NCBI GenBank assembly: GCA_013373325.1
Contig: JABXIA010000198.1
Coordinates: 1-43,176 of the forward strand
Reading direction: 5' to 3'
Length of the DNA: 43,176 nucleotides
Origin: Paracoccaceae bacterium
GTDB taxonomy: Bacteria > Pseudomonadota > Alphaproteobacteria > Rhodobacterales > Rhodobacteraceae
Below are positions 1,701 to 6,333 of this stretch, in pieces (position 1 is the stretch's first letter; each line of letters starts with the position of its first letter). Below the pieces are notes generated by a model. That model was not told the DNA's origin and ran no database searches. It saw nothing but the letters and a program-made list of their open reading frames with translations. Position numbers and translations under genes: made by a program.

Positions 1701-2723
1701 ATGACAAACACCTTCAAACAGCTACTGGACACCAGGGACGTGCTGCTGGCGGATGGCGCGACCGGCACCAACCTCTTTGCCATGGGCCTGCAATCCGGCG
1801 ATGCCCCGGAGCTGTGGAACGTTGATGAGCCCAAGAAAATCCTGGCGTTGTACCAGGGATCGGTTGATGCGGGCAGCGACCTGTTCCTGACCAACAGCTT
1901 CGGCGGCACCGCTGCGCGCCTGAAACTGCACGACGCGCAGGGCCGGGTGCGTGAATTGAACCGCATTGCAGCCGAATTGGGCCGCGAAGTTGCTGACAAG
2001 GCGGAACGCAAGATTGCCGTTGCCGGTTCCGTCGGACCGACCGGCGAAATTTTCGAGCCGGTTGGGGAGATGTCCCATTCCCTGGCGGTTGAGATGTTCC
2101 ACGAACAGGCCGACGCCCTGAAGGAAGGCGGCGCCGATGTGCTGTGGCTGGAAACCATTTCCGCCCCCGAAGAATTTCGTGCGGCTGCCGAAGCGTTCAA
2201 GCTGGCAGACATGCCCTGGTGCGGCACCATGAGCTTTGACACCGCCGGGCGCACCATGATGGGCGTGACCTCCTCTGACCTGGCGCAGCTGGTGGAAGAG
2301 TTCGCCAACGCGCCGCTGGCCTTTGGCGCCAACTGCGGCACCGGCGCCTCCGACATCCTGCGCACCGTTCTGGGCTTTGCCGCGCAAGGCACCGAACGCC
2401 CGATCATCTCCAAGGGCAATGCCGGCATTCCAAAATACGTCGACGGCCACATCCACTATGACGGCACCCCGGAACTGATGGGCGAATATGCGGTAATGGC
2501 CCGCGATTCCGGCGCCAAGATCATTGGCGGCTGCTGCGGCACCATGCCTGACCACCTGCGCTCCATGCGTGATGCGCTGGACAGCCGCCCGCGCGGCGAG
2601 GCACCGGCGCTGGAGAAAATCGTCGAAGTGCTGGGCCCCTTTACCTCTGAAAGCGATGGCACTGGCGAGGATGCAGCCGCAGGCGGTGAGCGCCGCGGCC
2701 GCCGTGGCCGCCGCCGCGCCTGA
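1701..2723 (+). CDS. bmt: Homocysteine S-methyltransferase domain protein (Bmt / MetH N-domain type)
   Basis: This 340-residue protein has the homocysteine-methyltransferase barrel: LLADGATGTNLF near the N terminus, GANCG (C212), and IIGGCCGTMPDHLR (C278, C279). The three cysteines bind the zinc that activates homocysteine. It is commonly annotated betaine-homocysteine methyltransferase. In Roseobacter-type genomes it is also the homocysteine half of a split cobalamin-dependent methionine synthase, and the corrinoid protein 1.7 kb downstream supports that reading. The end is a basic tail (GGERRGRRGRRRA) that is absent from the barrel proper. The ATG at 1701 fits the domain start, and a strong terminator follows. 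The methyl donor, betaine or methyl-corrinoid, cannot be decided from sequence alone. Confidence 0.85.
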   Translation: MTNTFKQLLDTRDVLLADGATGTNLFAMGLQSGDAPELWNVDEPKKILALYQGSVDAGSDLFLTNSFGGTAARLKLHDAQGRVRELNRIAAELGREVADKAERKIAVAGSVGPTGEIFEPVGEMSHSLAVEMFHEQADALKEGGADVLWLETISAPEEFRAAAEAFKLADMPWCGTMSFDTAGRTMMGVTSSDLAQLVEEFANAPLAFGANCGTGASDILRTVLGFAAQGTERPIISKGNAGIPKYVDGHIHYDGTPELMGEYAVMARDSGAKIIGGCCGTMPDHLRSMRDALDSRPRGEAPALEKIVEVLGPFTSESDGTGEDAAAGGERRGRRGRRRA

Positions 2724-2753
2724 TCGTTCCTGCCAATGTGGACTAGATGAATG

Positions 2754-2784
2754 GCGCCGCGTCTTCACACGCGGCGCTTTCTTT
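2754..2784 (+). terminator. Rho-independent terminator after bmt
   Basis: A perfect 9-bp stem, GCGCCGCGT (2754-2762) with ACGCGGCGC (2769-2777), has a 6-base loop and is followed by TTTCTTTC. It lies between convergent bmt and the acylphosphatase gene. Confidence 0.85.
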
Positions 2785-2797
2785 CGGCCTGACCGGC

Positions 2798-3076
2798 CTA
2801 CTCGGTGATACTAAAGCCGCTGATCCCAGGGTCCGGATCGGTTCTTTCTGTCAGTACATCCTTGACCGAGGCTGCCCCGGGGCCGCGGCCCATTTTGCGC
2901 ACCATATCCGCGACGCTGGCTGCGGGCCCTATCAGCAGCGCCCGGACAGAGCCATCCGGTTCATTGCGGACCCAGCCCGACAACCCGTGGCGCAACGCCT
3001 CCGCCCGCGCCCAGGTGCGGAAAGCCACGCCCTGCACGCGCCCTGTGACGCGCGCCTTCATAGCAACTATGCTCAT
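2798..3076 (-). CDS. acyP: Acylphosphatase
   Basis: This 92-residue protein has the full acylphosphatase fold signature: VTGRVQGVAFRTW with the phosphate-binding arginine, and GWVRNEPDGSV with the catalytic asparagine. The family hydrolyses carboxyl-phosphate bonds of small acyl phosphates in the cytosol. The ATG at 3074-3076 is supported by AAGGAG eight bases upstream. A second ATG five codons later would also leave the domain intact. It is on the opposite strand to the methionine genes around it, so its position there need not mean a shared role. Confidence 0.93.
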   Translation of the reverse strand: MSIVAMKARVTGRVQGVAFRTWARAEALRHGLSGWVRNEPDGSVRALLIGPAASVADMVRKMGRGPGAASVKDVLTERTDPDPGISGFSITE

Positions 3077-3149
3077 TGGACACGCTCCTTCTTGTCAGAG
3101 TGATGCCAACCTTAGCACACTTCAGCCGCCTGGATTGTTCAACAACCGG

Positions 3150-4229
3150 TCAGAACAGCGCCAGCTGGTCGCCCGGCTGCGGAGGGCGCGCAAAAAGGTC
3201 GCAACGCAGTGCCTCCGTCTGCTCCCGCAGGCCCAGCCGTTTGCAGGCCGCCTTGAAGCGCTGAGCGATCATCTCGGCATAACGCCCCTCGCCCCGCATC
3301 CGATGCCCCCAGCGCGGGTCATAATCGCGCCCGCCGTGCATCTCGCGCAACCGCGCCATCACCTTGGTCGCCCGGCCCGGCGCGTGTTCTGCCAGCCACT
3401 CTTGCCACAGCTCCGACACTTCCCGCGGCAGCCGCAGCATGATCCAGCTGGCAGCATCAGCCCCGGCCTCCGCTCCCGCGGCCAGCAGTGCCTCCAGCTC
3501 ATGATCCGTCAGCCCCGGCACAACAGGCGAGGTCATCACCCGCACCGGCACCCCAGCCTCTGTCAACCGCCGGATCGCAGCCAGCCGCCGGGCCGGCAGC
3601 GGCGCCCGCGGTTCCATCCGGCGGGACAGGTCCGGGTCCAGTGTGGTGACGGAAACCCCCACCCGCACCAGCCCCTTCTCTGCCATCGGTGCCAGGATGT
3701 CCAGATCCCGCTCCACCATTGCCCCCTTGGTTACGATTGCCACCGGGTGGTTGAAATCGCGCAGCACTTCCAGGCAGGCGCGCGAAATGCGCAGATCCCG
3801 CTCGCAGGGCTGGTAGGGATCCGTGTTGGTGCCAAGCGCAATTGCGGCGACCTTATAGCGGGGCGCTGACAGCTCCTTGCGCAGAACCTGGGCGGCATTG
3901 GGCCGTGCAATCAGCCGGGTTTCGAAATCCATTCCCGGCGACAGCCCAAGGTAGGCATGGGTCGGCCGTGCAAAACAGTAAATGCAACCATGCTCGCAAC
4001 CGCGGTAGGGATTGATCGAGCGGTCAAACGGCAGATCGGGAGAGCGGTTGTAGGTGATCAATGTGCGCGCCGTTTCCTGGCGCACATCAGTGGGAATCAC
4101 GGCATCCGGCAGTTCCTGGAACCAGCCATCATCCACCCCTTCCCGAACCAGCTCGAAACGGCCTGCCGCATTACTGAGGCTGGCGCGCGTTTTGCGGCGC
4201 ATGGTGTGTGGCGTGTTTTCAGGCAGCAT
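3150..4229 (-). CDS. PA0069-family radical SAM protein
   Basis: This protein is about 359 residues from the chosen ATG at 4227-4229. The frame is open further upstream, but those residues look unlike the family. The radical SAM cluster motif CEHGCIYC follows INPYRG, and GTNTDPYQPCE and SVTTLDPDLSRRMEPR match the spore-photoproduct-lyase-like PA0069 group. It should bind a [4Fe-4S] cluster and cleave S-adenosylmethionine reductively. The substrate of this group is unknown to me. It sits between bmt and the corrinoid gene but on the opposite strand, sharing a divergent promoter region with the corrinoid gene. That placement is suggestive but not proof of a link to methyl transfer. Confidence 0.85.
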   Translation of the reverse strand: MLPENTPHTMRRKTRASLSNAAGRFELVREGVDDGWFQELPDAVIPTDVRQETARTLITYNRSPDLPFDRSINPYRGCEHGCIYCFARPTHAYLGLSPGMDFETRLIARPNAAQVLRKELSAPRYKVAAIALGTNTDPYQPCERDLRISRACLEVLRDFNHPVAIVTKGAMVERDLDILAPMAEKGLVRVGVSVTTLDPDLSRRMEPRAPLPARRLAAIRRLTEAGVPVRVMTSPVVPGLTDHELEALLAAGAEAGADAASWIMLRLPREVSELWQEWLAEHAPGRATKVMARLREMHGGRDYDPRWGHRMRGEGRYAEMIAQRFKAACKRLGLREQTEALRCDLFARPPQPGDQLALF

Positions 4230-4282
4230 GGGCGCAAAATAGCGGCCGCAGAAGAACAAATAAAGAACAAATGGGTAAAATC

Positions 4283-4305
4283 GAAGATTTCCATGTGGAA
4301 TCTTC
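4283..4305. promoter_or_regulatory. Inverted repeat in the divergent promoter region (candidate operator)
   Basis: The arms GAAGATT (4283-4289) and AATCTTC (4299-4305) surround CCA-TG-TGG with one unpaired base, giving about ten symmetric pairs. It lies in the AT-rich 222-base gap between the radical SAM gene and the corrinoid-protein gene. It is a plausible binding site for a dimeric regulator. No regulator is identified. Confidence 0.4.
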
Positions 4306-4451
4306 ATTATTCTTGCGCCGGAATTGTCTCTATACGTCGGTTAGAAACGCGGCAATGTCGCAAATAATGCAGTTCGCAAACAGCATTCTGTCACAAAAGC
4401 CTCAGAAATAGGCCAACACCGGGGATTCCCCCGTCAGCAAGGATTAGGCGC

Positions 4452-5150
4452 ATGTCGGACGAAGAAGACATCATCCTCTCGGAACTCGATGACGAGGAAC
4501 TTGTTCAGCAGATGTTTGACGACCTCTATGATGGTCTCAAAGAGGAAATCGAAGAAGGCGTGAACATCCTTCTGGAGCGCGGCTGGGTTCCCTACGACAT
4601 CCTGACCAAGGCACTGGTTGGCGGCATGACCATCGTCGGCGCCGACTTCCGCGATGGTATCCTGTTCGTTCCCGAAGTTCTGCTGGCGGCAAACGCGATG
4701 AAGGGCGGCATGGCCATCCTGAAGCCGCTGCTGGCCGAAACCGGCGCGCCGCGCGTGGGCTCCATGGTCATCGGCACCGTCAAGGGCGACATCCACGACA
4801 TCGGCAAGAACCTGGTTTCGATGATGATGGAAGGCGCAGGTTTCGAGGTTGTCGACATCGGCATCAACAACCCTGTCGAGAACTACCTGGAATCGCTGGA
4901 AGAGCATAAGCCTGACATCCTCGGCATGTCGGCTCTGCTGACCACCACCATGCCCTACATGAAAGTCGTGATCGACACCATGGTCGAGCAGGGCCTGCGC
5001 GACGACTACATCGTGCTGGTTGGCGGCGCGCCGCTGAACGAAGAGTTCGGCAAGGCAATCGGTGCCGACGGCTATTGCCGTGACGCAGCCGTGGCCGTGG
5101 AAATGGCCAAGGACTTCGTTGCGCGCAAGCACAACTCGATGAGCGCCTGA
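4452..5150 (+). CDS. Corrinoid (cobalamin-binding) methyltransferase protein
   Basis: This 232-residue protein has two domains. The N-terminal helical cap (about residues 10-95) resembles that of MetH and of methanogen-type corrinoid proteins. The Rossmann-like B12 domain carries GDIHDIGKNL, with D113, H115 and G118 forming the DxHxxG motif whose histidine is the lower cobalt ligand. Later come GMSALLTTTM and LVGGAPL. It shuttles a methyl group on cobalamin between partner proteins. The neighbouring Bmt-type barrel and the following DUF1638 gene suggest it is the B12 module of a split methionine synthase. The start ATG at 4452 is preceded by AAGGATTAGGCGC. Other methylamine-type roles are possible but less fitting here. 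Confidence 0.9.
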   Translation: MSDEEDIILSELDDEELVQQMFDDLYDGLKEEIEEGVNILLERGWVPYDILTKALVGGMTIVGADFRDGILFVPEVLLAANAMKGGMAILKPLLAETGAPRVGSMVIGTVKGDIHDIGKNLVSMMMEGAGFEVVDIGINNPVENYLESLEEHKPDILGMSALLTTTMPYMKVVIDTMVEQGLRDDYIVLVGGAPLNEEFGKAIGADGYCRDAAVAVEMAKDFVARKHNSMSA

Positions 5151-5151
5151 T

Positions 5152-5862
5152 TTGGCACGCAAAGGACGTGCAGCCCGCTTGACAGAGCGGGCTGCATTCC
5201 GCCCGCCGACCGGGCGGACACTCGAGGAAACATCCCTCACCGAACAGGGCTTGGCCGCCCCTGAAAAGAAGACCGGCCGCATCCTGCTGATTGCTTGCGG
5301 TGCACTGGCGCGCGAGATCCTTGCCATCAAGGACGCTAACGGCATGGATCACATCGACCTCACCTGCCTGCCTGCCAAGCTGCATCTTTATCCCGAGCAG
5401 ATCGTGGACGCCGTCGACGGCGCCGTGGACAAGCATTCAGCCGTTTATGACAAGATTTTCGTGGTTTATGCCGACTGCGGCACTGGCGGCGCGCTGGAGC
5501 GTAAATGCGCTGAATTGGGCGTGGAGATGGTGGCAGGCCCGCATTGCTATTCCTTCTTCGAAGGCAACGAGACCTTTGCCCGCAATTCGGAAGAAGGCGA
5601 AATTACCGCTTTCTACCTCACAGACTTTCTGGTCAAACAATTCGACGCCTTTGTCTGGCGCCCGATGGGCCTCGACAAGAACCCGGAGCTGCGGGACATG
5701 GTGTTCGGCAATTACACCAAGCTGGTCTACCAGTCCCAGGTCAGCGATCCCAAACTGGTGGAAAAAGCGCAAGAATGCGCAGACCGCATGGGCCTGGCGT
5801 TCGAACACCGCCACACCGGTTATGGCGATCTGGAAACCGCCATGACAAACTGGGCCCGGTAG
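5152..5862 (+). CDS. DUF1638 family protein
   Basis: This 236-residue protein starts with TTG one base after the stop of the corrinoid gene, so the two are almost surely co-transcribed and probably translationally coupled. The first 40 residues are basic and variable. The DUF1638 domain begins at about KTGRILLIACGALAREI. Visible conserved features are the cysteines in IACGA, DLTCLP, VYADCGTGG and GPHCY, which could bind metal or corrinoid. From memory, mutant-fitness studies in Phaeobacter tied a DUF1638 gene beside the corrinoid gene to methionine synthesis. The biochemical activity is unknown to me. No signal peptide or membrane segment is visible. Confidence 0.85.
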   Translation: MARKGRAARLTERAAFRPPTGRTLEETSLTEQGLAAPEKKTGRILLIACGALAREILAIKDANGMDHIDLTCLPAKLHLYPEQIVDAVDGAVDKHSAVYDKIFVVYADCGTGGALERKCAELGVEMVAGPHCYSFFEGNETFARNSEEGEITAFYLTDFLVKQFDAFVWRPMGLDKNPELRDMVFGNYTKLVYQSQVSDPKLVEKAQECADRMGLAFEHRHTGYGDLETAMTNWAR

Positions 5863-5922: not shown

Positions 5923-6333
5923 TCAGGCCTGCGCCATCGCGGTTTCGCGGATCCGTTCGATCATGGCGCGCAGACCGTTGGAGCGCTGCGAGGACAGATG
6001 CTCATTCAGCCCCAGCCGTCCCAGCTCAGCCTTGGCATCCACCGCCGGAACCTCTGTCAGCGCCAGCCCGTTGTAGAGGCAGCGCAGCACCGCGATCAGA
6101 CCGCGCACAATCATCGCGTCGCTGTCACCGTCAAACCGGAATTCTCCGCCTTCGATCGTGGCATGCAGCCAGACCTGGCTGGCACAGCCATCCACCTTGG
6201 TCGCAGGCACTTTCAGCGCTTCGTCGAGCGGCTCCATTGCCTTGCCCAGATCGATCACATGGCGGTAACGGTCCTCCCAGTCCTCCATGAACTCGAAGTC
6301 TTCAACGATCTCTTCAAAGGCGGCAGTGGCCAT
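5923..6333 (-). CDS. sufE: SufE cysteine desulfuration protein
   Basis: This 136-residue protein matches the SufE length and fold. C50 in KVDGCASQVWL is the sulfur-accepting cysteine that takes persulfide from the SufS desulfurase and passes it to the SufBCD scaffold for Fe-S cluster assembly. The segment DFEFMEDWEDRYRHVIDLGK at residues 12-31 is the usual N-terminal helix. No other suf genes are in the window, as is common for sufE in this group. The ATG at 6331-6333 is the natural start. Confidence 0.93.
   Translation of the reverse strand: MATAAFEEIVEDFEFMEDWEDRYRHVIDLGKAMEPLDEALKVPATKVDGCASQVWLHATIEGGEFRFDGDSDAMIVRGLIAVLRCLYNGLALTEVPAVDAKAELGRLGLNEHLSSQRSNGLRAMIERIRETAMAQA

Follow-up and report, generated by a model that had tools for sequence, protein, structure and literature searches.

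What does a DUF1638 protein contribute to a methionine synthase whose activities are divided among separate genes? The question arises in a 43,176-nucleotide stretch of DNA from a Paracoccaceae bacterium (assembly GCA_013373325.1, contig JABXIA010000198.1, positions 1–43,176), the whole of which is termed here the window. It encodes a homocysteine S-methyltransferase barrel (MtgE), a corrinoid protein (MtgC) and, directly after MtgC, DUF1638. Its domains, and the order of their genes, agree with those of the published Phaeobacter locus, so that MtgE and MtgC almost certainly represent two of three catalytic components of the split B12-dependent methionine synthase known there, with DUF1638 as accessory. 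Across the class, DUF1638 tracks MtgC more closely than it tracks RACo or MTTB. It is very likely an accessory dedicated to MtgC, and it probably works with a RamA-like ATPase in MtgC reactivation.

Both the split synthase and its requirement for DUF1638 have been described in print. In Phaeobacter inhibens the parts are PGA1_c13370, c13350 and c16040, with DUF1638 as c13340 and a RamA-like protein besides (PMC5764234); a preliminary description of the present DNA had pointed to a fitness link between split MetH and DUF1638 in Phaeobacter, and that link is in print there. DUF1638 mutants of Phaeobacter are methionine auxotrophs (PMC5764234), and methionine auxotrophy of mutants has been shown in Ruegeria as well (PMC12478193). 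In the Ruegeria MtgBCDE system, glycine betaine demethylation draws on the same MtgC and MtgD as methionine synthesis, and DUF1638 abundance rises on betaine (PMC12478193). The earlier reading of the locus as a methionine synthase is thereby supported, except that MtgC and MtgD are not devoted to methionine alone. The authors of the 2018 study offer, by their own account, no specific proposal for the role of DUF1638 (PMC5764234). Our search of the literature for DUF1638, PF07796 and MtgBCD returned, beyond these two papers, just a table row on a Sinorhizobium protein. The present comparison narrows the question, in that DUF1638 goes with MtgC-type proteins and not with RACo reactivation in general or with loss of MetH. 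Seven invariant DUF1638 residues can now be named as mutagenesis targets, and PF13769, fused to RamA in one plasmid, is an addition beyond the main texts of PMC5764234 and PMC12478193. B12 reactivation in aerobic bacteria bears on ocean betaine and methionine cycling, and becomes directly testable.

DUF1638 and MtgC across the class

Co-occurrence was surveyed in 289 genomes of the class, with MtgC orthologs defined by scores >300 bits. DUF1638 was present in 53 genomes, MtgC in 54, RACo in 65, MTTB in 62 and the MetH activation domain in 154. MtgC, RACo and MTTB were each found in 52 of the 53 DUF1638 genomes, and 52 of the 54 MtgC genomes also had DUF1638; the association of DUF1638 with the corrinoid protein raised in the preliminary description thus holds. 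Among the 236 genomes without DUF1638, MtgC occurred in 2, RACo in 13, MTTB in 10 and the activation domain in 130. As a rough correction for relatedness, we compared the 12 families that were mixed for DUF1638, over the genomes named in our listings; agreement with DUF1638 was seen in 10 families for MtgC, 8 for PF13769, 7 for MTTB and 6 for RACo. Because of the co-occurrence in both directions and this agreement in 10 of 12 families, we conclude that DUF1638 goes with MtgC-type corrinoid proteins. We rejected the idea that it is a stand-in for the MetH activation domain (PF02965), since 24 of the 53 DUF1638 genomes also have that domain; no association was found between the two (24/53 versus 130/236; Fisher 0.22, to be read with caution as kinship is not corrected for).

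Gene order points the same way. A corrinoid-protein gene lies within 500 bases of DUF1638 at 47 of 55 places, always upstream and on the same strand. In G125 and G196 the corrinoid protein near DUF1638 is no MtgC ortholog but one of 43–45% identity; G125 also has a URO-D-family gene beside DUF1638. The 13 genomes with RACo and no DUF1638 fall into three sets. Four (G081, G187, G224 and G229) have a divergent RACo (206–230 bits) near a corrinoid protein just 42–49% identical to MtgC; three have fragments only (G007, G077 and G228); and six have RamA-type proteins, in genomes of varying completeness (G071, 82%; G074, 67%; G109, 99%; G176, 93%; G193, 64%; G226, 70%). Among 14 control genomes, DUF1638, RACo and MTTB matched Methanosarcina acetivorans alone, placing DUF1638 in an archaeon as well.

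Two further kinds of cluster were noted. Locus L131 (4231–8031), like L137 and L138, combines a divergent RACo-like protein, a corrinoid protein 45–48% identical to MtgC and a pterin-binding protein, and has neither DUF1638 nor PF13769. By Pfam, the L131 cluster also includes a URO-D-family gene. Genome G287 has a second DUF1638 cluster (L135, 2258–15232) with MetV-like, MetF-like, MtgD-like, RamA and URO-D-family genes and a gene for a distant corrinoid protein; inserted among them are genes that by eye resemble a TRAP transporter.

A probable role in MtgC reactivation and its alternatives

In a survey of 50 DUF1638 sequences, comprising the 30 of alignment A1 and a further 20 that include divergent ones, C49, E55, H78, D108, C109, H131 and C132 were invariant. 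The window protein has six cysteines, three of them in this invariant set, in keeping with the several conserved cysteines described before. A confident AlphaFold2 model of residues 39–236 has an alpha/beta core (mean predicted local distance difference test score, pLDDT, 96; predicted TM-score, pTM, 0.88). Placed on its secondary structure, and not on coordinates, the conserved Cys, His and Asp residues would lie where strands 1–3 end or just past these points, and in the loop that follows strand 3. Searches of the PDB by sequence and by fold gave no clear structural relative. We put the chance that the invariant Cys/His/Asp/Glu set forms a metal site at about even.

The cycle that we envisage draws on published genetics in relatives for its methyl-transfer steps. 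MtgD, encoded elsewhere, would methylate Co(I)-MtgC from methyl-tetrahydrofolate, and MtgE would hand the methyl group on to homocysteine; MTTB-family proteins could also load MtgC from betaines. MtgC cobalamin that had slipped to Co(II) would be reduced by the RamA-like ATPase. DUF1638, dedicated to MtgC-type corrinoid proteins, would work with RamA in this reactivation, its invariant residues at the strand ends possibly forming a metal or Fe-S centre.

Several points weigh against this proposal. The methanogen protein RamM is active in vitro with just corrinoid protein, ATP and reductant (PMC6855144), and methanogen and acetogen activators reduce corrinoid proteins in vitro without a DUF1638-like partner (PMC6855144, PMC6739815). 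Genome G109, 99% complete, carries genes for MtgC, PF13769, an MtgD-like protein and RamA in a row, plus MTTB, and no DUF1638; because it has these parts without it, DUF1638 is not always needed. The Fisher values across the 289 genomes take no account of relatedness. C72 of DUF1638 is kept in 47 of the 50 sequences and replaced in three, and the siting of the invariant residues is as indirect as stated above. The reaction of DUF1638, any bound metal, and its contact with RamA or MtgC are putative.

The main rival is that DUF1638 loads or protects the cobalamin of MtgC, as a chaperone or maturation factor with no part in reduction. We consider this unlikely, though it accounts for MtgC being the closest associate of DUF1638, whose gene mostly comes next after that of MtgC, and for the absence of DUF1638 from the four genomes where a divergent RACo accompanies a more distant corrinoid protein. 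It also fits with DUF1638 not being needed for B12 synthesis itself, which follows from B12 synthesis genes being essential in Phaeobacter and DUF1638 not (PMC5764234). Loading is less easily squared with the 26 of 55 places where, with the 54 higher-scoring RACo places taken in, DUF1638 has RACo on its strand within 6 kb, or with G037, G165 and G263, where DUF1638 stays with PF13769 and RACo and MtgC is elsewhere. We favour reactivation of MtgC with RamA over cobalamin loading; that the role lies in reactivation rather than in loading has, in our estimate, slightly better than an even chance. A part in methyl transfer itself, with DUF1638 assisting MtgC in a metal- or thiol-dependent way, would suit the invariant residues at strand ends and the tie to MtgC, not RACo, in the 12-family comparison. 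It is improbable, however, given that published mutants lose methionine synthesis though MtgC, MtgD and MtgE cover the methyl path (PMC5764234), and given G125, where a distant corrinoid protein and a URO-D-family gene accompany DUF1638, so that DUF1638 is not tied to a single donor enzyme.

Two further alternatives call the system itself into question. The barrel could be an ordinary betaine-homocysteine methyltransferase (BHMT) unrelated to a split methionine synthase, and NCBIfam does label it betaine--homocysteine S-methyltransferase (605.8 bits; cut-off 338). Among solved structures, however, it matches Thermotoga MetH at 126.6 bits versus 50.6 and 42.5 for the BHMT structures 1umy and 1lt7, its Phaeobacter counterpart is required for methionine synthesis (PMC5764234), and the betaine-binding residues of human BHMT have been argued, from relatives' proteins, to be missing in the MtgE family (PMC12478193). 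We hold this alternative to be very improbable. That DUF1638 is a mere genomic neighbour with no role in the system is scarcely credible: G109, a good genome, does have MtgC without DUF1638, but the co-occurrence holds where DUF1638 is not adjacent to MtgC, and the published mutant phenotype and fitness data contradict it (PMC5764234).

PF13769 as a possible third partner

The small protein PF13769, named "Virulence factor" in Pfam, was first met in the G109 locus. It occurs in 54 of the 289 genomes, all with RACo (two of them fragmentary), 53 with MTTB, 50 with MtgC and 48 with DUF1638. At 33 of the 55 DUF1638 places it is within 500 bases downstream on the same strand, and it is never upstream. 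Five DUF1638 genomes lack it (G125, G127, G173, G178 and G281). Further places were found at L165 (10585–10917) and L168 (10601–12880).

A plasmid of the betaproteobacterium Azoarcus sp. KH32C has, in order, genes for a corrinoid protein, DUF1638, PF13769, a MetV-like protein, MetF, an MtgD-like protein annotated as dihydropteroate synthase, and an ASKHA protein, adjoining glycine betaine transporter genes. These genes recur in Sinorhizobium meliloti Ak57, with some insertions among them, and Paracoccus methylovorus has the corresponding cluster without PF13769. In a plasmid of Terrarubrum flagellatum, DUF1638 is followed by a gene for a 760-residue fusion protein that has PF13769 at its N-terminus (residues 8–92), then a 2Fe-2S domain and the RACo domains; this was the sole such fusion, with no second PF13769-RamA case in the open frames of 74 loci.

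These observations tempt us toward a broader proposal, which we rate somewhat short of even: that MtgC reactivation is the work of a three-protein machine of RamA, DUF1638 and PF13769, and that the genes for corrinoid protein, DUF1638, PF13769, MetV, MetF, MtgD and RamA form an operon that is a single transferable cassette for methyl handling. PF13769 would then serve RamA as a subunit or docking domain, and DUF1638, bearing a Cys/His/Asp/Glu redox or metal site of its own, would be the partner on the MtgC side. If so, the "virulence" label of PF13769 is a misannotation. Counting against an exclusive tie, PF13769 matched Bacillus subtilis and not Methanosarcina acetivorans among the 14 control genomes. 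Its model is confident (pLDDT 92.7) and gave no clear structural relative. The accession had no occurrence among the matches listed in a full-text literature search, and the word "virulence" is absent from the main texts of PMC5764234 and PMC12478193.

The locus and its genome

The features of the locus, with window coordinates, are as follows.

1701–2723, plus strand: MtgE, homocysteine S-methyltransferase barrel (PF02574), 340 amino acids, with C212/C278/C279
2798–3076, minus strand: acylphosphatase (PF00708), a Pfam match between MtgE and MtgC
3150–4307, minus strand: radical SAM protein (PF04055), a Pfam match between MtgE and MtgC
4452–5150, plus strand: MtgC, corrinoid protein with B12 cap (PF02607) and B12-binding (PF02310) domains, 232 amino acids
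5152–5862, plus strand: DUF1638 protein (PF07796 at residues 72–230), 236 amino acids, TTG start
5168–5197 and 5198–5218, plus strand: two adjoining strong RNA hairpins within the N-terminal coding extension of DUF1638

The barrel with three cysteines and the separate corrinoid protein with a DxHxxG motif are both as given in the preliminary description, which had left out the two minus-strand genes between them. PF02574 is the sole domain of MtgE (S-methyl_trans, 202 bits, above cut-off); its C212, C278 and C279 we take to be the zinc ligands, and the NC...GGCC of MtgE aligns opposite NC...GGCC in Thermotoga MetH. MtgC matches B12-binding_2 (61 bits) and B12-binding (91 bits), both above cut-off, and its motif is D113-I-H115-D-I-G118. 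DUF1638 scores 117.3 bits against PF07796 (cut-off 27).

The own genome of the window (409 contigs, 90.5% complete) supplies the other parts. Two PF00809 proteins were found: that on contig C291 is a methyltetrahydrofolate:corrinoid methyltransferase (MtgD) by NCBIfam NF005719, above cut-off, and is the stand-alone pterin-binding protein that the preliminary description proposed to look for, and that on contig C63 is presumably a dihydropteroate synthase, judged by its motifs. The single RACo C-terminal match is on contig C9, in a protein that runs off the contig edge and includes the linker and middle domains of RACo as well as the C-terminal one. Nine places match the MTTB family. A PF13769 gene (C291, 4092–4385, minus strand) shares its stretch and strand with MtgD, from which it is separated by one open reading frame without a Pfam match. 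The genome thus combines a stand-alone barrel, a stand-alone corrinoid protein, a separate pterin-binding methyltransferase, a RamA-like reactivase and DUF1638. The MetH activation domain (PF02965) and the MetE C-terminal catalytic domain (PF01717), likewise named in that proposal, gave no match, which is not proof of absence because the genome is 90.5% complete. A MetH-like reactivation part is, as described before, not at the locus; its counterpart is the RamA-like protein, not a MetH domain.

As in Phaeobacter inhibens, the same domains are in separate genes, DUF1638 adjoins the corrinoid gene, a radical SAM gene lies between barrel and MtgC, and the pterin part and RamA are elsewhere. Unlike that locus, which belongs to another genus, the present one also has an acylphosphatase gene, and its DUF1638 has an N-terminal extension across two hairpins, Phaeobacter being known to us here by description and not by sequence. 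The genome also has, as judged by its genes, the Ruegeria pomeroyi set of MtgC, MtgD, MtgE, MTTB-family proteins, RamA and DUF1638; PF13769, unlike these, goes unmentioned in the main text of the Ruegeria account (PMC12478193). Classical MetH contains homologues of the barrel, the B12 cap and the B12 domain, whereas the parts here are unfused and a RACo-type protein was found in place of the activation domain. The C9 protein shares its three domains with the RamA, RACo and AcsV activators; unlike them it is truncated and scores below the NCBIfam cut-offs for AcsV and RamA.

A profile scan gave 80 relatives' loci, all from roseobacter-type alphaproteobacteria, with MtgC in 75 and MtgE in 54 within the stretch taken, several loci being short. 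In its DUF1638 core, the window matches two Leisingera strains at 97% identity and a third at 94%, which suggests Leisingera or a close relative as its source. Because just 2 of the 80 loci have it, the acylphosphatase is probably not part of the methionine synthase system. The radical SAM gene is a neighbour in 58; we rejected it as the reactivase, given its absence from 22 of the loci (some truncated) and published fitness data, in which the Phaeobacter counterpart is dispensable for growth in minimal medium (PMC5764234). A SufE-like gene (5923–6333) points toward DUF1638, and 56 of the 80 loci retain it in the vicinity.

The TTG at 5152 is one base 3' of the MtgC stop, as noted before. Since the first 40 residues of DUF1638 span both hairpins, its start was at first in doubt, and a downstream start was considered. 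It was rejected: the frame of about 40 residues from the TTG is kept in 7 of 16 relatives, one with an in-frame 12-base insertion and two (L052 and L055) with ATG, so that the TTG is probably the true start. The other nine relatives lack the extension and start nearer the DUF1638 core. In relative L053, one stem pair is altered on both sides, as read by eye. Because several extension-less relatives have a hairpin and T run between mtgC and DUF1638, a former intergenic hairpin may have turned coding in the extension.

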